Below, piece after piece: positions 56,254-64,000 of a stretch of 64,000 bases of DNA. The notes under the pieces were generated by a model that saw only the letters and a list, made by a program, of their open reading frames with translations, made no database searches and was not told the origin of the DNA. The stretch's first letter is position 1; every line of letters starts with the position of its first letter. Origin of the DNA: Fistulifera solaris (lineage: Eukaryota; Bacillariophyta; Bacillariophyceae; Naviculales; Stauroneidaceae); NCBI GenBank assembly GCA_030295235.1, contig AP026154.1, forward strand, positions 522,197 through 586,196, given 5' to 3'. A program made the position numbers and the translations under genes.

Positions 56254-59016
56254 TTACACAACAAATAGTAGACACATTAGCAACCATACAGCACCTCGTC
56301 CAAACAACACCAATCCGTCTCTTCTTTTCGTAGATGATCCATTTTCCTCACCAGCGCGATCGGATGTCGGCAAAGTTCTTATCAAAATAGTTTCGTCTTC
56401 GTTGTCGGCATTCAATGCCGCTACCACCACGATTTCATCGCTGGATTGCGGAATGGCGACACTCAACAATTCAAATTGATATCCTCCCATCTCATTCGTG
56501 ACACTTCTTTGAATAACCGCGCCATTCATTGTTTCCACACGCACTGTAGCATTGGCAACAAACGCCAAGGACGGTGCGGAACCCATAATCAGACTGGTTC
56601 CCACGGCACTCAAGCGCTGTTGTAATGTCGTTGGGTCCACAAGTGACGGATTCGTAGTGGTAGTATCAACGGCACCGATGCACGGTGCATTGATCCAAAT
56701 GGCCGTCTCTTGCGCGGTAAAACCGAAATCGTCACTCATCAGCGGTGCTGAAGAACTGACTTGATCGGCGATGTAGTTGATCGGCAGATCATTCACCCAC
56801 GCCAATTGACGAAGCGAGCTGTACGAAGCACCATCCATTCGTTCGACATCAATGATATTGCGCATACCGAAACTCGGACCACCCACATTGCTCGTCGTGA
56901 CACCGTTGGTGTATTGATTCAAATAATACAGGAGCGCCGCTTTCAATGATTGGCTGTCGGGTAAAAGAAAGGAATCGGTGAAGAACGTCAAAGCGCGACT
57001 GGGATCGAATACATTGGCCGCTAACTCATTCGATGCTTCCATCACAAATGCTTGCACTTTGGCACCACGATACCAAAACTCCGATACAGCATTAATCGTA
57101 GCATTCCCTTGGATCACGGGGTCTTGTAAGGCGGATCCCATTGGAACAATCGGTGCATTGACATAAATACCCGATGAAACAGTTTCGGCGTTGCTGGACA
57201 ACACGTTGCCTTCGCTACGATACGTATCGGCGGCGTATCCCGATGGCGGTCGCACATACACAATCTCCATGTAATCCGAATACCTCTCTGCATCAATGTG
57301 ATGGTACACAACAATGGGTGCACCAATCATTTGCGACAAATCAGTTGGTGTCACGACATAGAGCGTATTCCAAGGAAGATCCGCTGTCGTCGTTTCAGCT
57401 GTAATCAAATTTGGTGATGTCTTGGCGGAATACATGTAGAACATGAACATCTGAGTGGGTTGATCATTGTACCAGAGGGAATGTGCCGAAAAAAGTCTTG
57501 TTTCCGGATTGTATCCTAGTTGCGACGGCGTCACGATGCCGTTGCTTGATTGCGATTCATAAATGGTGGGTGGCGCACCGCCAATATAATCATTGACATC
57601 CACTGTACGAAAGACGGTACCATCTGCACGCAAGTACACGACAGCGACTCCGTCTGGAATAGTCGAGCTCAAAACCGTCATTTCATACACACCAAACTGA
57701 TCCGTTTGCGTATCGGCCAAGACCGTGCCCTGTGGCGTCAATAATTCAACGGCTATTCCCTCTACGTTTCGAAACGTCCACTCACTTCCCATAATACGAG
57801 TCGAATTTTGATTCACAGAAACCGATGTCAAGAACGATATGCCGGTGGGTCTTGTCAAAGTATCGTTGCTGGACGCCGAGACAGAACCGACAATGGGAGC
57901 ATTGATGAACCAAGCTATCAACTCCACTTGAAATCCATTCGCGTCAGTCAAATCATTTGCCGACTGCACTTGATCGGCTCTAAAATCCATAGGAACACTC
58001 TTGACCCAGTTCATTTGCACCAATGGCGAATAGAGTGGATTTGTTCGATCATATGGCACCACATTTCGCATCCCTGCCACACTCGGACCACCATTGTTCA
58101 CTCCGGCTGTCACATTTGTAGTATAGGCATTTAGAAAATACAACGGATTGCTTTGTACGCTCCCTGTTACAGCAAATTGAGAATTGATGAGAATTTGCAA
58201 ACTGGGGTCGGAGTTCGATTCCGGGCGTGTGTACGCAAAGAATTCGGCTCCGCGCACATCATTCGTTTCCATAACATACATCCAAACATCGACACCCTTA
58301 TACCATGCAATTACTGGATCAATTGGCGCTGTTATTTCTGACTCGTTAATCGTAGTTTGTAGTTTTCTTGTCCGAGTCGTGTTGGTCGTAGCGTCTGTCA
58401 AATTTCTGTCGGCATCCGTCGTGTTCGTATCACCCATACCTGTCGAATTCGTATCCTCCTCTACAATTTGACGTATACGAGGATCTTGTAAACGACTATT
58501 GATGGGAACCAACGGCATATTGACGACAATTCCGGTCGATTGTACGGGTTGTCCACTTTGCAAAACATCCAATTCACTGCGAAACAAATTGGCTTCGTAG
58601 TAATCCGTCGGTACCGGCACCAGCAGCAACTCAGCAAAATCTGAGTACGAGATGTTGTCTAAATGATGATACGCAAGGATCGGACGTCCCATAACACCTG
58701 TCAAGGCAGTGTCGTTTGTCATCAAATAGATTTTATTCATCGGAACATCATTACTGCCCGACAAGCTCGTGTAGCCTTCTTCATCGCTGTAAACACGGAA
58801 TCTGTAATACGATACGACTTGATTGTCAACATATTGCGTTTGTACACGAAACACATTGTTGACGAAATCGTAATCTTCATTTTGAAAACGAATCGGCTCC
58901 GTTTCGTAAGCGGTCAACGGCGTCGTCGTTATCCAGTCGTCCGCGACACCGTTGACGAATGCAGCATATCGCGTGACCAGAAAAAGCTGTAAGAAAAGCG
59001 ACAGAAAGTATTTCAT
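56254..59016 (-). CDS. Large secreted, probably GPI-anchored protein with an internal duplication, 920 aa
   Basis: Single exon. Signal peptide MKYFLSLFLQLFLVTRYAAFVNG. The ectodomain consists of two homologous halves. Half 1 has NKIYLMTNDTALTGVMGRPILAYHHLDNISYSD; half 2 has NTLYVVTPTDLSQMIGAPIVVYHHIDAERYSD. Each is followed by an LFRSE/TYRSEGNVL, P(L/I)VP(I/M)(N/G)S(R/A)LQDP block, a WYKGVDVWMYVME/WYRGAKVQAFVME block, FLNAYTTNVT/LNQYTNGVTTS, a SVAGMRN/SFGMRNI block and PMDFRADQVQSA/PINYIADQVSSS. Many NxS/T sites. The C-terminal Asn/Ser site followed by a hydrophobic tail (LFGRGAVWLLMCLLFVV) fits a GPI-attachment signal. Function unknown; likely cell-surface or frustule-associated. Confidence 0.85.
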   Translation of the reverse strand: MKYFLSLFLQLFLVTRYAAFVNGVADDWITTTPLTAYETEPIRFQNEDYDFVNNVFRVQTQYVDNQVVSYYRFRVYSDEEGYTSLSGSNDVPMNKIYLMTNDTALTGVMGRPILAYHHLDNISYSDFAELLLVPVPTDYYEANLFRSELDVLQSGQPVQSTGIVVNMPLVPINSRLQDPRIRQIVEEDTNSTGMGDTNTTDADRNLTDATTNTTRTRKLQTTINESEITAPIDPVIAWYKGVDVWMYVMETNDVRGAEFFAYTRPESNSDPSLQILINSQFAVTGSVQSNPLYFLNAYTTNVTAGVNNGGPSVAGMRNVVPYDRTNPLYSPLVQMNWVKSVPMDFRADQVQSANDLTDANGFQVELIAWFINAPIVGSVSASSNDTLTRPTGISFLTSVSVNQNSTRIMGSEWTFRNVEGIAVELLTPQGTVLADTQTDQFGVYEMTVLSSTIPDGVAVVYLRADGTVFRTVDVNDYIGGAPPTIYESQSSNGIVTPSQLGYNPETRLFSAHSLWYNDQPTQMFMFYMYSAKTSPNLITAETTTADLPWNTLYVVTPTDLSQMIGAPIVVYHHIDAERYSDYMEIVYVRPPSGYAADTYRSEGNVLSSNAETVSSGIYVNAPIVPMGSALQDPVIQGNATINAVSEFWYRGAKVQAFVMEASNELAANVFDPSRALTFFTDSFLLPDSQSLKAALLYYLNQYTNGVTTSNVGGPSFGMRNIIDVERMDGASYSSLRQLAWVNDLPINYIADQVSSSAPLMSDDFGFTAQETAIWINAPCIGAVDTTTTNPSLVDPTTLQQRLSAVGTSLIMGSAPSLAFVANATVRVETMNGAVIQRSVTNEMGGYQFELLSVAIPQSSDEIVVVAALNADNEDETILIRTLPTSDRAGEENGSSTKRRDGLVLFGRGAVWLLMCLLFVV

Positions 59017-59409
59017 TTTGATTTTTTTGATTGTGTAATTGGCAAGTCGAAAGAAAAGGAGTGTCATTCGATTGCCAAGGAACGAATGAGGCTTCGTCGT
59101 TTTGTTTCTCGCGAGTCAAGGGGGGGGGGGGGGGGGGGGTAGATTGTTTGAGGGGGCCGAGTTGTCGGAATGGCAATCTTCTTTACAATCTGTATCACGC
59201 CAAAGCGTCTAAATATAAAGATAATTACCAGTACCGGTACCTATTCAACGATGAACGATGAGGAGTGAGGAGTTGTGTTTCAAATCCGAGAGTGTTTCGA
59301 TTTGCTGCTTAAGTGCAATACCTGGTAAGAATGATACTAAATCAATAATGTACTCCGTATCTTGCAAGAAGGCATCCGTGACTGCAAAGACGTACACAAC
59401 GGAAAAGCA
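59017..59409. other. Transition to subtelomere, with G20 tract
   Basis: Promoter region of the large secreted protein. Contains an uninterrupted run of about 20 G at about 59120-59139, a GGTACC-rich palindrome at about 59230, and a TACTCCGTA site. No gene. Confidence 0.6.
59351..59359. promoter_or_regulatory. TACTCCGTA element (site 8, reverse orientation)
   Basis: 335 bp upstream of the large secreted protein's start, and the last copy before the subtelomeric blocks. Confidence 0.35.
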
Positions 59410-59660
59410 GGGTTAGGAATTTGGAAATTGGGATATGGAACTTGGAACTTGGAAAAGGAACTTAGAACTAGGTAAAAAGGAAGTAGGAATCAGCAACAAC
59501 GGAGTCAGGAAGACGGAATAGAAAACTCAAGAAGAACACCTGCCCATTAGAAAAGACAGGCCCATTTTCCGCCATCCAAGTCATTGCAAGCTTATGTTCC
59601 TGCAAATCAGAATCAGGAATTGTGTTGGCTTCTCACAATATTATCGCGAAATAGGGTTAG
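59410..59660 (-). mobile_element. Subtelomeric block family A, copy a
   Basis: Begins with GGTTAGGAATTTGGAAATTGG. It shares about 110 bp with copy f (63138-63260), including GGAACTTAGAACTAGG and GGAAGTAGGAATCAG, then diverges into unrelated sequence up to 59650. Confidence 0.65.
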
Positions 59661-59685
59661 GAATTTGGAAATTGGGATATGGAAC
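59657..59685 (-). mobile_element. Subtelomeric block family A, copy b (shortest, about 30 bp)
   Basis: TTAGGAATTTGGAAATTGGG plus GATATGGAAC, then TTAGGGTTAAGGGTTAGGG resumes. It retains only the constant left end of the family. Confidence 0.65.
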
Positions 59686-59696
59686 GTTAGGGTTAA

Positions 59697-59840
59697 GGGT
59701 TAGGGTGGAAAAAACGGCTATAGGAAGAAATTGAGCTAGAACTACGAAAACCAGCCTGATGAGACATGTAGGGTGATGGAGAGGATGCAATGAGAATGAT
59801 GCAACCAGGAATACAAGTGGCAGGTTGCACAAGAGAAGAT
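59697..59840 (-). mobile_element. Subtelomeric block family B, short copy (element 3' end only)
   Basis: TTAGGG(T) followed by GGAAAAAACGGCTATAGGAA through GGCAGGTTGCACAAGAGAAG, then TTAGGGTTAGG. It matches 60183-60320 nearly base for base. On the minus strand this is the 3' end of the reverse transcriptase element. Confidence 0.8.
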
Positions 59841-59845
59841 TAGGG

Positions 59846-60165
59846 TTAGGAATTTGGGAATTGGGATATGGAACATGGAACTTGGAACAAGGAAAGCGTA
59901 GAAGTAGGAAGTAGGAATTAGAGAAGCGGTAACTTAGAAGTAGAAAGTAGGAATTTTAGTAGTGGTAGCATTACATGGAAGTAGGAATCAAAGCAGGAGG
60001 AATTGAGGAAGAAGTGAAGCTAGGAAAAAAGGGGGAATAAGGGGAAGAATAAGAAGGAAAGGGAGACAAGAGGGGATAGGGAATTTAGAGGAATGAGGAA
60101 CAATGAGCACTTGCAAAAACTGTTGTATCTATCAATGTTTTGCTCCTGTAAAAATATATTTGCAC
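59846..60165 (-). mobile_element. Subtelomeric block family A, copy c
   Basis: About 320 bp from AATTTGGGAATTGGGATATG to AAAAATATATTTGCAC, then GTTAGGGTTAGGG resumes. Matches copies d and e over its full length but stops where they continue. Confidence 0.8.
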
Positions 60166-60171
60166 GTTAGG

Positions 60172-61920
60172 GTTAGGGTTAGGGTGGAAAAAACGGCTAT
60201 AGGAAGAAATTAAGCTAGAACTACGAAAACCAGCCTGATAAGACACGTAGGGTGATGGGGAGGATGCAATGAGAATGATGCAACCAGGAAGACAAGTGGC
60301 AGGTTGCACAAGAGAAGAATGGACTCCAGATGGGAGAGCAGCAGCTCTAATAGAGCAAAAGACCTGAGCCATCCCAGGTGGGTCTATCGCGCGGAGGGGC
60401 TCCATCCCTCAGCGCAGCAGCATGCTGACAGACCGGACCAGTGAGATACTCAGGGCGTGATCGTACAAATCCACACCGCGGTAGAATACGATCGCCCCCA
60501 CTTTTTTGGACAGGGCGGCGAGCCAGGGCGTCGCGAGGCGGCCGTGGCTTGCTCACCCATCAACCCATCCACAGAAAAGAGCGAGTGGAGTAAAGTCTAG
60601 GTCGGCGTGCCCTGCAGGGCTCTTCATAGAGGTCCCGCTTCTCACGCTCCTGCTTGGCAAGGACTTTAAAGGGGTCCTGCCCGAATGGGATGGGGCATCG
60701 GTGTCCGTGACTCGGGCGTCGAAGATGGTGGTCTTACCCGGGTCCAGAACCCATGGGTAGAGATGTCTCCACGCAACTCCGAAGCTTCTGCGTCTAAGCC
60801 AACAGCCGGTGTGTCGCGATAGGTGTTGATTTTGTGTTCATCGCGAACCGCACGGGGCTGAAGGCCTGTGCGCAGAGGGACATGACTTCCATTTTCAGGT
60901 CATCATGTCGCATCGTTACCAGTCCACCCTTCTTGCACGTTTGGGAGTGCGCTGAGAGTGAAGGGTTTGCCACACCATCACAGGTGACTGGTAACGCGGT
61001 CACTGGGAGACCCATTCGGATGCGGGCGCTGTCGCGGAACTCATCGCGGGAAAGGTCCGTACCGTTCAGGGTCTGGGGAAGGACAGAAAGCCAGAGACCC
61101 GTGTGTCTGGCTTTAAGGAGAAGCGGCGAAGTTTCTCGCGGGCCCTCCTACTGACAGATCTGCTGGAGCTGGGCAGCATCTGCAGCCTATCTCTCCCCCT
61201 GCAGTGCAAAGCGCCGGCTCCCTCGCATCGCGACTGGTGTGCCGCAACATTCAAGGGGCTGTTTCGAGAGAAGACTGTCGGCGGATTCCGTGATGGAGAG
61301 AGAGCTGGAGTGATTGTGGGCAGCCGTGGAGGTGGGGTTGAGGATCCCAAGGCCTGCAGACTTAACGCTCAGCTTCGTCAGGAGACGCAGTGCATCTCCT
61401 GGCGCTTCATTCTACGCCGAGGGAGGGAAGGGAATGAACTTCTCCCAGTTTCACGCTCCAATGGGGCAAAGGCTTCACCGCGGTCGGGAAGCACTCTCTG
61501 CAAGTAAAGCCACTCAGCCTGGAGTGACTTGCAGAGGCCAGCATATGCAGTCTGTGGATACTGCATTGCGGCTTTCGCCAAACCACGGACCCCAAAGCAC
61601 CACGCATCGATCTGTGGCTTAAGCCACTCCGGCTTGATCAATGGGGCTTCCAATGAATCCTCCCAGGTAGCGAGCTCCTGTGGCATACTGAAAGTGAAAT
61701 GCCGCCAAGTTGCGCTGGGCCTGAGCCTGGTGTGCTTGGCGGCAGACCAGGATGCTCTTCCGGTTCGGGGGAAGTAACCACGGTTTGGGGCCAAAGCGCT
61801 GCAACAAAAGTGTTGCATTCACAATGCCACGGACTGTTCCCGCCATAGCCATGTCATTCGGCATACCAGGGCTGAACAACATCCTTGGTAGCGAATTTGC
61901 TTGGCGAGTGGTGATAGGGT
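60172..61920 (-). mobile_element. 5'-truncated telomere-associated retroelement with reverse transcriptase (family B, long copy)
   Basis: Minus-strand coding text begins at the inner edge of TTAGGG repeats (61920). VVQPWYA then a D-D motif interrupted by one extra base (about 61852) is the YADD catalytic motif of reverse transcriptase. Then RFGPKPWLLPPNRKSILVC, ARYLGGFIG, WLKPQIDAW, PQTAYAGLCKSLQAEWLYLQRV and GEAFAPLERE follow, and farther down CKKGGLVTMRHDDLKMEVMS. Fingers and upstream palm motifs are absent, so the copy is 5'-truncated. It then enters the 140-bp noncoding tail shared with 59697-59840 and ends in CCCTAACCCTAAC. More GC-rich than its surroundings. Several single-base frame slips. 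Confidence 0.75.
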
Positions 61921-61930
61921 GAGGGTTAGG

Positions 61931-62317
61931 GTTAGGAATTTGGGAATTGGGATATGGAACATGGAACTTGGAACAAGGAAAGCGTAGAAGTAGGAATTAG
62001 AGAAAGCGGTAACTTAGAAGTAGAAAGTAGGAATTTTAGTAGTGGTAACGTACATGGAAGTAGGAATCAAAGCAGGAGGAATTGAGGGAAGAAGTGAAGC
62101 TAGGAAAAAAGGGGGAATAAGGGGAAGAATAAGAAGGAAAGGGAGGCAAGAGGGGATAGGGAATTTAGAGGAATGAGGAACAATGAGCACTTGCAAAAAC
62201 TGTTGTATCTATCAATGTTTTGCTCCTGTAAAAATATATTTGCACATTTGGACCCTCTTGCTTCCGTGATTTTTGCTTTCCGGATTGCGTAATGAAAACT
62301 GTTTGTGAAACTGTTGC
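61931..62317 (-). mobile_element. Subtelomeric block family A, copy d
   Basis: Same left end as copies c and e, but extends about 70 bp farther than c (ATTTGGACCCTCTTGCTTCC onward), ending at GTGAAACTGTTGC before GTTAGGGTTAGG. Confidence 0.8.
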
Positions 62318-62320
62318 GTT

Positions 62321-63137
62321 AGGGTTAGGAATTTGGGAATTGGGATATGGAACATGGAACTTGGAACAAGGAAAGCGTAGAAGTAGGAAGTAGGAATTAG
62401 AGAAAGCGGTAACTTAGAAGAAGGAAGTAGGAATTTGAGTAGTGGTAGCATTACATGGAAGTAGGAATCAAAGCAGGAGGAATTGAGGAAGAAGTGAAGC
62501 TAGGAAAAAAGGGGGAATAAGGGGAAGAATAAGAAGGAAAGGGAGACAATAGGGGATAGGGAATTTAGAGGAATGAGGAACAATGAGCACTTGCAAAAAC
62601 TGTTGTATCTATCAATGTTTTGCTCCTGTAAAAATATATTTGCACATTTGGACCCTCTTGCTTACGTGATTTTTGCTTTCGGTTAAGTAATAAAAACTGT
62701 TTGTGAAACTGTTGTGTTAGTACCTCTCTTATCTACTTGGCACAATATAAACATTGTTAAACTGTTGTTTTATTACCTCTCTTATCTACTTGGCACAATG
62801 AAAACATTTGCAGTCACAATCCTTCACGTTTGGGTCAATTTCCACAACCTTAATAAGAGTTGTGCCATCATAGTTGACACCATCCCTATAAGTTGTCTGT
62901 GTGTGGTCATATAGCTTTGTCGTTGCAATGTTTACAATGCATGAGTCATTCTTGTATGCAATCCCCTGCAAGGCATCCAAAACCAGTTTCACGCAGTTGT
63001 CGATGTCAGGAGCATTTGTGACAAATTTGGGAGCTGTTGGTTTCAACAGCCATTCTTATGATGCTGGTCCAAGTAAGAAATGGGTCTTGGGTCTTGGAAA
63101 GTAGAACTTTCACGGTGATTGAGCATGGATTGCCATT
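62321..63137 (-). mobile_element. Subtelomeric block family A, copy e (longest, carries RusA-like coding)
   Basis: About 810 bp from TTAGGGTTAGGAATTTGGG to GATTGCCATTGGG, followed by TTAGGGTTAGG. Includes a tandem duplication of TACCTCTCTTATCTACTTGG (about 62718 and 62775) and, at 62786-63046, a RusA-like coding fragment. Confidence 0.75.
62786..63046 (-). CDS. RusA-like Holliday-junction resolvase fragment
   Basis: About 86 codons; the frame is closed upstream by a stop, so the N-terminus is lost or frame-shifted. Seen: APDIDNCVKLVLDALQGIAY then KNDSCI. RusA enzymes have PD(L/I)DN-x2-K-x3-DAL-xG-x2-x-DDSQV, in which the two Asp of DxD, the Lys four residues later and an Asp of the DD pair form or support the metal site. 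All four positions are present. Known role: metal-dependent cleavage of four-way junctions, usually in phages and bacteria. In a eukaryotic telomeric element this is unexpected. Confidence 0.55.
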   Translation of the reverse strand: MKPTAPKFVTNAPDIDNCVKLVLDALQGIAYKNDSCIVNIATTKLYDHTQTTYRDGVNYDGTTLIKVVEIDPNVKDCDCKCFHCAK

Positions 63138-63282
63138 GGGTTAGGGTTAGGAATTTGGAAATTGGGATATGGAACTTGGAACTTGGAAAAAGGAACTTAG
63201 AACTAGGTAAATAGGAAGTAGGAATCAGTAACAAGGGAGTAAGGAAGATGGAATAGAAGGAAATGTTGGAAATAAGGGAAAG
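63138..63282 (-). mobile_element. Subtelomeric block family A, copy f (outermost)
   Basis: TTAGGAATTTGGAAATTGGG to about GAAATAAGGGAAAGGG, then the terminal TTAGGG array. Closest to copy a. Confidence 0.7.
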
Positions 63283-64000
63283 GGTTAGGGTTAGGGTTAG
63301 GGTTAGGGTTAGGGTTAGGGTTAGGGTTAGGGTTAGGGTTAGGGTTAGGGTTAGGGTTAGGGTTAGGGTTAGGGTTAGGGTTGGGGTTAGGGTTAGGGTT
63401 AGGGTTAGGGTTAGGGTTAGGGTTGGGGTTAGGGTTAGGGTTAGGGTTAGGGTTGGGGTTGGGGTTAGGGTTAGGGTTAGGGTTAGGGTTAGGGTTAGGG
63501 TTAGGGGTTAGGGTTAGGGTTAGGGTTAGGGTTAGGGTTAGGGTTGGGGTTAGGGTTGGGGTTAGGGTTAGGGTTAGGGTTAGGGTTAGGGTTAGGGTTA
63601 GGGTTAGGGTTAGGGTTAGGAGTTAGGAAGGTTAGGAGTTAGGAGTTAGGAGTTAGGAGTTAGGGTTAGGAGTTAGGGTTAGGAGTTAGGAGTTAGGAGT
63701 TAGAGGTTAGGAGTTAGGAGTTAGGGTTAGGAGTTAGGGTTAGGAGTTAGGAGTTTAGGGTTAGGAGTTAGGAGTTAGGAGTTAGGAGTTAGGAGTTAGG
63801 AGTTAGGGAGTTAGGGTTAGGGTTAGGAGTTAGGGTTAGGGTTAGGGTTAGGGTTAGGAGTTAGGAGTTAGGAGTTAGGAGTTAGGGTTAGGAGTTAGGA
63901 GTTAGAGAAGGGTTAGGGTTAGGGTTAGGGTTAGGGTTAGGGTTAGGGTTAAAGAGTTAGGGTTAGGAGTTAGGGTTAGGGTTAGGGTTAGGGTTAGGAG
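63283..64000 (+). repeat. Telomeric (TTAGGG)n array with variant units, chromosome right end
   Basis: 63283-63620 is mostly perfect TTAGGG with scattered TTGGGG and one TTAGGGG. 63620-63910 is dominated by TTAGGAG with interspersed TTAGGG. 63910-64000 returns to TTAGGG. The G-rich strand runs toward the right, as expected for a right-hand telomere. Apparent ORFs here are repeat artefacts. Confidence 0.97.

Follow-up and report, generated by a model that had tools for sequence, protein, structure and literature searches.

The right end of the window, a stretch of 64,000 nucleotides from Fistulifera solaris (contig AP026154.1, positions 522,197 to 586,196), is a stack of six copies of one element family, A, and two of a second family, B. 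It probably formed as chromosome ends captured element RNA time after time, as in fungal telomere retroelements.

Layout and junctions of the terminal stack

The stack extends from 59409 to 64000 (Table 1), and the A copies within it are of two kinds, A1 and A2. Each stacked copy has a fixed start on the centromere side and an end that varies on the telomere side. The preliminary description had recognised the same eight copies at nearly the same positions, and the lengths it gave as about 30-810 bp (A) and as 140 bp and 1.7 kb (B) were found to be 24 nt to about 808 nt, and about 133 nt and 1.74 kb. The common 3' boundary ending in telomere complement that it reported, combined with 5' truncation of varying extent, is also borne out.

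Table 1. Features at the right end of the window; copies of A and B start at their first family-specific base, and element sense is the minus strand.
Feature	Position	Strand	Remark
Junction string between unique DNA and first A copy	59409..59417	+	AGGGTTAGG
A1 copy 1	59418..59523	-	3'-terminal 106 nt
Internal A segment fused to A1 copy 1	59524..59651	-	part of second A gene
A1 copy 2	59662..59685	-	24 nt only; preceded by TAGGGTTAGG
Telomeric tract	59686..59706	+	GTTAGGGTTAAGGGTTAGGGT
B copy 1	59707..59839	-	about 133 nt
A2 copy 1	59851..60165	-	about 315 nt; preceded by TTAGGGTTAGG
Telomeric tract ahead of B copy 2	60166..60185	+	GTTAGGGTTAGGGTTAGGGT
B copy 2	60186..61921	-	1.74 kb, 5'-truncated; decayed RT and REL-like coding region
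A2 copy 2	61937..62317	-	about 381 nt
A2 copy 3	62330..63137	-	808 nt, longest A in window
RusA-type resolvase, C-terminal part, inside A2 copy 3	62786..63055	-	Pfam PF05866, E 6e-12
A1 copy 3	63152..63281	-	130 nt, final element ahead of terminal telomere
Terminal TTAGGG array	63282..64000	+	TTGGGG and TTAGGAG variants; to contig end

The first A copy is a composite or internally deleted copy, in which the 3' end of A1 is followed by an internal segment of A. The first part of this segment is 91-93% identical to sequence at the contig ends C2R, C18L and C7L, with similarity covering about 59523-59622 only. Telomere sequence had been said to resume past each copy, and it does lie beyond the truncation in 24 of the 37 copies that were parsed; the remaining 13 are the three reference copies, one alignment break, and copies that are composite or run into satellite or other DNA. 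Between the first A copy and the next, only TAGGGTTAGG is present and there is no real resumption of TTAGGG.

A starts next to the complement of CCTAACCCT, and B next to that of about two to four telomere units. Among the 29 A junctions listed, 25 combine the fixed start with 9 or more exact telomeric bases; 14 hold 9-11 such bases and five more hold 12, and in 17 of these 19 the flank is free of telomere repeats, as judged by eye. Within the window, four of the six A copies are preceded by 9-12 telomeric bases only (AGGGTTAGG to GTTAGGGTTAGG) and the other two by 14 and 15. As most of these copies have so few, the string may belong to the element and not to an older telomere, and the mostly non-telomeric flanks add to this, so that the telomere complement seems to arrive with A. 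The proposal that the RNA pairs with the G-overhang is affected accordingly: given these short junctions, a long overhang would be unneeded for most A copies.

Distribution over chromosome ends and the extent of recombination

In the same genome, 62 of the 63 listed A and B matches, spread over 31 contig ends, are less than 11 kb from the end concerned; these counts are lower bounds with 40 of 49 candidates scored. All 62 share one orientation, which had been expected at every end. Internal copies with target duplications had been named as evidence against capture; one internal copy does occur, as the 63rd match, at C33R, lies 30 kb from the contig end and its orientation agrees with the others. 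The proteins of A are distributed similarly, as the second A protein gave 20 of 20 matches near contig ends in the same orientation (10 ends), and RusA 10 of 12 (9 ends); the other two are distantly related and form an internal pair. Relatives of the B reverse transcriptase (RT) at internal sites served as a control: of 21, 9 have this orientation and 12 the opposite one. Since GGGTTAGG occurs on neither strand of the window at 1-59400 and a single orientation holds at 31 contig ends, the junction arrangement is not due to chance.

The aligned truncation points take 37 distinct values in the 37 parsed copies, three of which are the reference copies, though one pair (49/53) seems to have inherited its truncation from a common ancestor. 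Shared truncation points had been put forward as a sign of simple recombination, and such sharing is seen at a minority of ends: C2R and C18L have a common block (96.5% identity over 2 kb and the same tandem start), and C20L/C51L and C24L/C53L have a common block order or truncation, judged from match spacing. Based on these three end pairs, recombination does occur. If it acted alone, A and B would be subtelomeric repeats, comparable to yeast Y' or telomere-linked helicase regions, spread by break-induced replication via short TTAGGG tracts, with erosion and telomerase healing making the varied ends. The common blocks fit such a process, as does the junction resolvase encoded by A, and break-induced replication with healing is described for MoTeR arrays (PMC7367193). 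However, B encodes an RT, the truncation values differ from copy to copy, and the 19 A junctions with 9-12 telomeric bases, mostly without repeat flank, offer little homology for strand invasion. In addition, the identity of A2 copies inside the window stack (0.974-0.989) overlaps the range for copies at separate ends (0.951-0.989, with a mean of 0.970, n=33); the slightly higher identity within the stack allows for some local exchange. We therefore find it unlikely that recombination alone made the stack.

Regarding the host genome, an aldolase adjoins C18L and carries a diatom-type plastid signal. Neighbouring contigs pair at 76-91% identity among the matches listed, and F. solaris is described as putatively alloploid (PMC8329260).

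Coding capacity of families A and B

Judged by its sequence, B is an R2-like retroelement in decay, in which a restriction-like endonuclease (REL) has left traces. An internal relative of its RT matches C2R, C31L and C46R in tblastn (E 1e-34 to 6e-34), and the best PDB matches of this relative are R2 proteins (E 2e-5), which by sequence similarity place the B RT in the early-branching non-LTR (R2/REL) group. In the second B copy of the window, similarity to the internal relative lies at about 60989-61879, an RHDD motif in an ORF at 60794-61147 and an RGD block in an ORF at 60666-60899. Across C46R and C31L, Cys-His-Cys and RHDD fall in one frame and the RGD block in another; each copy has the motif in part only, the frames are broken, and no intact B copy was found at telomeres. 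Like elements of the MoTeR/FoTeR type, B is confined to ends in a single orientation, with its 3' end on telomere repeats.

The preliminary description had likened the layout to endonuclease-deficient Penelope-like elements. These elements and the Terminons of bdelloid rotifers are described as having telomere-capped 5'-truncated copies, tandem arrays and accessory ORFs, with reverse-complement telomere repeats at the 3' ends of Terminons (PMC3846280; PMC6431247), and the stack resembles them in all four respects. However, the only RT found in the stacks is R2-like with REL traces and not a Penelope RT. An RVT_1 search gave 26 places, two of which (C5L and C52) are less than 20 kb from a contig end, both against element orientation; it placed no Penelope-like RT at the ends, and the C5L match was set aside, as it looks Ty3/gypsy-like by eye. 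Furthermore, an Rfam search of 17.6 kb of DNA from the ends gave no hammerhead: with E up to 2, the window at 59300-63400 gave no match, and L068, L004, L046 and L039 gave one sub-threshold, unrelated match. The text of PMC6431247 contains neither RusA nor resolvase. For want of a Penelope-like RT and of a hammerhead in the DNA searched, the assignment to Penelope-like elements or Terminons was rejected as highly improbable.

Family A encodes a RusA-type resolvase and a second protein, both with an excess of changes at the third codon position. The RusA domain is matched in the window fragment (Table 1) and in a fragment at C8L (phrog_140, E 6.2e-14). Between C7L and C18L, the second gene differs at 1/0/16 sites of codon positions 1/2/3 (1 non-synonymous, 16 synonymous), and RusA has 22/16/46 between A1 and A2 (43 synonymous, 41 not). 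The constraint on RusA is moderate, as about half of the A1/A2 changes are non-synonymous. Five A fragments scanned against Pfam gave no family and no RT, and no copy known as full-length was found. A and B have only the telomere complement in common, and among the copies seen A neither encodes an RT nor shares further ends with an RT element. Support for reverse transcription of element RNAs comes from the RT-bearing B among the copies; for A, transfer via RNA is a presumption.

A could instead be a virus- or plasmid-like DNA element with a telomere-like end, annealed into telomeres and then broken and healed, with B alone a retroelement. HHV-6 integrates at telomeres by annealing, with later breakage and healing. 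No RT was detected in the A fragments, and near the ends no RVT_1 match has the orientation of the elements, which is in line with this, as are RusA and the second conserved gene. However, A and B are similar in junction architecture and mixed in stacks, the A protein was found near contig ends only (20/20), and two IMG/VR scans with A proteins gave no relative. A DNA element is therefore quite improbable, and a viral origin of the A proteins was set aside after the IMG/VR scans. PDB searches with the second A protein and the A RusA fragment gave nothing credible. Recent capture of a host RusA was rejected, as the internal gene on C34 shows 35% identity across 68 residues and has no blastn match to the ends searched. 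Splice signals were also discarded as a sign of an RNA intermediate; of the introns suspected in A, the one checked has no GT/AG in C7L, and the internal join at C18L has no GT-AG bounds. Tentatively, A could be a telomere-only mobile element with its own Holliday-junction resolvase, a second selected protein and its own 9-12 nt telomere complement, which attaches to broken non-telomeric ends and heals breaks besides riding telomeres.

Probable capture of element RNA and comparison with known systems

In the proposed capture, RNAs ending in telomere complement (CCTAACCCT), i.e., B's own RNA and in trans that of A, would come to lie on an exposed 3' end, which could be that of an eroded telomere or of a break outside telomeric DNA. 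Reverse transcription would be primed by that chromosome 3' OH and would halt sooner or later along the RNA, so that each copy is 5'-truncated to a different extent. Telomerase would then cap or heal the truncated 5' end, and occasional recombination or break-induced replication would carry whole blocks between ends. That A is mobilised in trans by the RT of another element is our assumption. For telomerase, a pair of TERT-domain genes is found, one on C30 (E 1.5e-27) and one on C31 (E 4.1e-26).

MoTeR1 and MoTeR2 of Magnaporthe oryzae are described as telomere-only and stacked with short TTAGGG tracts, with 5' ends always outward and truncated copies healed; the RT is in MoTeR1, and MoTeR2 lacks it, has both ends in common with MoTeR1 and carries its own segment without obvious function (PMC7367193). 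The present stack is alike in its telomere-confined copies, stacking with short TTAGGG tracts, outward 5' ends, healed truncations and RT-less partner beside an RT element. It differs in that the telomere complement is all that A and B have in common, in the selected genes of A (RusA and the second), in the terminal variant repeat tract of MoTeR1, not noted in A or B, and in host kingdom. FoTeRs of Fusarium oxysporum are reported to have an RT and an REL endonuclease (consensus CCHC, then RHD/N, E and R/KPD), and a 3' side on typically 3-7 telomere repeats; complete copies are fewer than truncated ones, and helicase genes (TLH) are often at the same ends (PMC12857005). B resembles them in its R2-like RT, its 3' side and its truncated copies, and its REL traces may correspond to their endonuclease. 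In contrast to FoTeRs, A junctions often hold 9-12 nt only, and the partner is a resolvase-bearing element and not a helicase region.

The stack differs from HeT-A/TART, with hosts that lack telomerase, as TERT-domain genes are present. Yeast Y' elements are subtelomeric repeats in one orientation. The stack shares this orientation with Y', and with Y' and telomere-linked helicases a subtelomeric position and an encoded recombination enzyme; it differs from them in a near-unique truncation point per copy, a resolvase instead of a helicase, and an intermixed RT element.

Among the matches listed from titles and abstract beginnings of open-licence literature, there were no telomeric retroelements in diatoms and no RusA in a telomeric element, and the available parts of PMC9266582, PMC8147415, PMC8329260 (diatom genomes), PMC4700185, PMC9674265 and PMC4640811 mention no such diatom elements. 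If capture of element RNA is correct, F. solaris would have telomere-capping R2-like retroelements in a diatom, far from the fungal hosts described above, together with a partner element that carries a selected resolvase. With a telomerase gene present, it would offer a natural system for how end repair is divided among telomerase, retroelements and recombination.

Position and orientation at contig ends

Contig C46 (586,196 bp), whose right end is the window, belongs to a genome of 51.7 Mb in 61 contigs; the window closes with the stack of family A and B copies listed in the table. Subfamilies A1 and A2 diverge already within their first 30 bases.

Features of the stack at the window's right end and of an internal RusA-family gene pair (window coordinates unless a contig is named)
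Feature	Position	Strand	Details
Last long frame before stack	56254-59067	minus	937 aa
Stack of A and B copies with terminal array	59409 to 64000		
Stack order 1: A1			composite
Stack order 2: A1			24 nt
Stack order 3: B			about 133 nt
Stack order 4: A2			about 315 nt
Stack order 5: B			1.74 kb
Stack order 6: A2			about 381 nt
Stack order 7: A2			808 nt
Stack order 8: A1			130 nt; then terminal TTAGGG array
Internal RusA-family gene pair	C34:84495-84866 and C35:88868-89239		open frames 310 and 306 aa

The outermost telomere (63620-64000) contains many TTAGGAG and TTAGAGG units, and several other ends do too; these are either true variants or read errors. A 20-G run (59120-59139) lies between the stack and the last long frame.

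All genome counts refer to one assembly. A 1-kb query from the stack, with 40 of 49 candidates scored and counts therefore lower bounds, gave at least 63 matches, 62 of them less than 11 kb from the end of a contig and spread over 31 ends. All 62 near-end matches run in the same direction, with the constant 3' boundary on the centromere side, which bears out the single orientation proposed in the preliminary description. Mixed orientation at other ends, or internal copies with target duplications, had been named there as evidence against the proposal; among the matches listed, orientation was never mixed at ends, and one copy does lie inside C33, 30.4 kb from its right end, also oriented by the rule. 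With a family A query (62640-63140), 16 of 17 matches are near ends (15 ends) and all 16 follow the rule, the 17th being the same C33 locus. Each of the 20 matches to the unknown A protein, spread over 10 ends, follows the rule; RusA gave 12, of which 10 follow the rule at 9 ends and 2 are the internal pair. The B reverse transcriptase (RT) query gave 5 matches by the rule at 3 ends, and its 21 internal matches, taken as an orientation control, divide into 9 with and 12 against. Combining queries, A or B sequence is found at 34 contig ends.

Boundaries, truncation points and junctions

The contig ends number 122, and the sample parsed from them was not random: it took in 10 kb at each of 20 left ends (2,500 of these being N in C7L, the left end of C7), the window's last 10 kb and ten partial ends found by searches. 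Among the 37 copies parsed, the centromere-side start is constant within each family and all 37 aligned truncation values are distinct (for three reference copies the value is merely the end of the reference), as expected from a shared 3' boundary with variable 5' ends. The A2 value of 92 at C10L is an alignment break (144 in a separate comparison). Shared truncation points, which would point to simple recombination, are represented by one nearly equal pair, C18L 49 and C2R 53, which appears shared by descent. The claim that TTAGGG resumes after each truncation held for 24 of the 37 copies, the remaining 13 being scored otherwise.

We listed 29 A junctions. Aside from an internal false start (C10L 1192, excluded), two with the base adjoining the start altered (C18L 3684, C2R 5247) and one with 7 exact telomeric bases (C10L 1285), the other 25 carry 9 (AGGGTTAGG) in 7 cases, 10 in 2, 11 in 5, 12 in 5 and at least 14 in 6. 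In 17 of the 19 junctions with 9-12 bases, the flank has no telomere repeat by eye (exceptions C8L 5397, C37R 1763). These few bases may have been first added by telomerase; since the short strings stand against non-telomeric flanks, we read them as an element-borne tail, CCTAACCCT(AAC), in which the A RNA would end. The nine B junctions have 11-28 exact telomeric bases, 20 in three of them.

Satellites also occur near contig ends. A TTGTGCAAGTGCAA-type satellite follows two A2 copies (C33R, C43L) and is also listed at 379-1305 of sequence L028; a repeat similar to it, judged by translation, partly fills the C20 left end. At the C11 left end (about 1-1800) there is a tandem satellite of TTTGCACACTTA type, and TTAGGG is absent from the 10 kb examined there; the opposite strand carries sequence related to it near C12L and C16L.

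Coding content of A and B

The longest A copy observed, at C2R, measures about 2.85 kb and extends as far as the telomere tract and the B copy that come next. A may be longer, given that C18L matches this copy over 2 kb and onward to distance 1534, and C7L to distance 1364. In sense order, A opens with a 5' region in which a segment of about 190 bp is duplicated; the unknown gene comes next, then RusA, and last a 3' part rich in C and T. Mismatches at codon positions 1/2/3 of the unknown gene number 1/0/16 between C7L and C18L (16 synonymous, 1 not) and 14/8/34 between C8L and C18L; for RusA, A1 and A2 differ by 22/16/46 (43 synonymous, 41 not). The last eight 75-base windows of the C2R/C7L alignment give 16/8/34 in the coding frame, and the third-position excess is absent from its 5' windows. 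These counts show constraint, so A descends from copies whose proteins worked. The window's RusA fragment retains the residues that we take to be catalytic in the E. coli enzyme. The C34 RusA gene is only distantly related to that of the element, with 35% identity over 68 residues. In a copy at about 3510 of C18L, some 130 nt from the 3' end of A1 are fused directly to a position about 750 bp farther upstream, and the join is not GT-AG.

For B, minus-strand open fragments matched an internal relative on C14 (tblastn, E 1e-34 to 6e-34 in C2R, C31L and C46R; 2e-7 in C6R). In the PDB this relative is matched best by proteins of R2 retrotransposons (9nl3, E 2.3e-5; 9dou, 2.8e-5), and it scores 28.2 bits against RVT_1, slightly under the 29.6-bit cut-off; a Pfam scan of the B fragments themselves matched no family. 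Traces of a restriction-like endonuclease (REL), partial in each B copy, are a Cys-His stretch followed by RHDD and, in another frame, an RGD block; they resemble the REL consensus given in the FoTeR paper (PMC12857005). The longest B, about 2.7 kb, abuts the terminal telomere at C31L. Every B copy has an interrupted reading frame, to which assembly indels may contribute, and codon-position comparison of the B blocks was uninformative as the copies are too alike. R2-like RT relatives of B are dispersed in the interior on both strands (1055-2299 of sequence L073 and 20 further places), some with long open frames.

Known telomere elements and chromosome-end maintenance

MoTeRs point their 5' ends outward and form stacks in which short TTAGGG tracts alternate with copies that have been truncated and healed; break-induced replication (BIR) is involved in some cases (PMC7367193). 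FoTeRs combine a REL domain with 3' telomere repeats (PMC12857005). Rotifer Terminons carry a hammerhead adjoining the 3' telomere complement (PMC6431247); in 17.6 kb of end DNA here, Rfam matched no hammerhead. B works like telomere-targeted REL elements and probably belongs with them. A works like their partner and is kept outside the group because no RT was found in the A fragments scanned.

Terminal reverse transcription would account for the fixed 3' start, single orientation, scattered 5' ends and RT gene, and telomerase healing of copies for the repeats that come after them. Recombination also operates between ends. C2R and C18L have a tandem start in common and 2 kb at 96.5%, and A2 identity within the window's stack (0.974-0.989) overlaps the between-end range (0.951-0.989, mean 0.970). 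Match spacing suggests that C20L/C51L and C24L/C53L have blocks in common; C51 and C53 are contigs under 50 kb, however, and each may be a second version of its partner end produced in assembly. Since genes with TERT domains are present on C30 and C31, the stacks need not substitute for telomerase.
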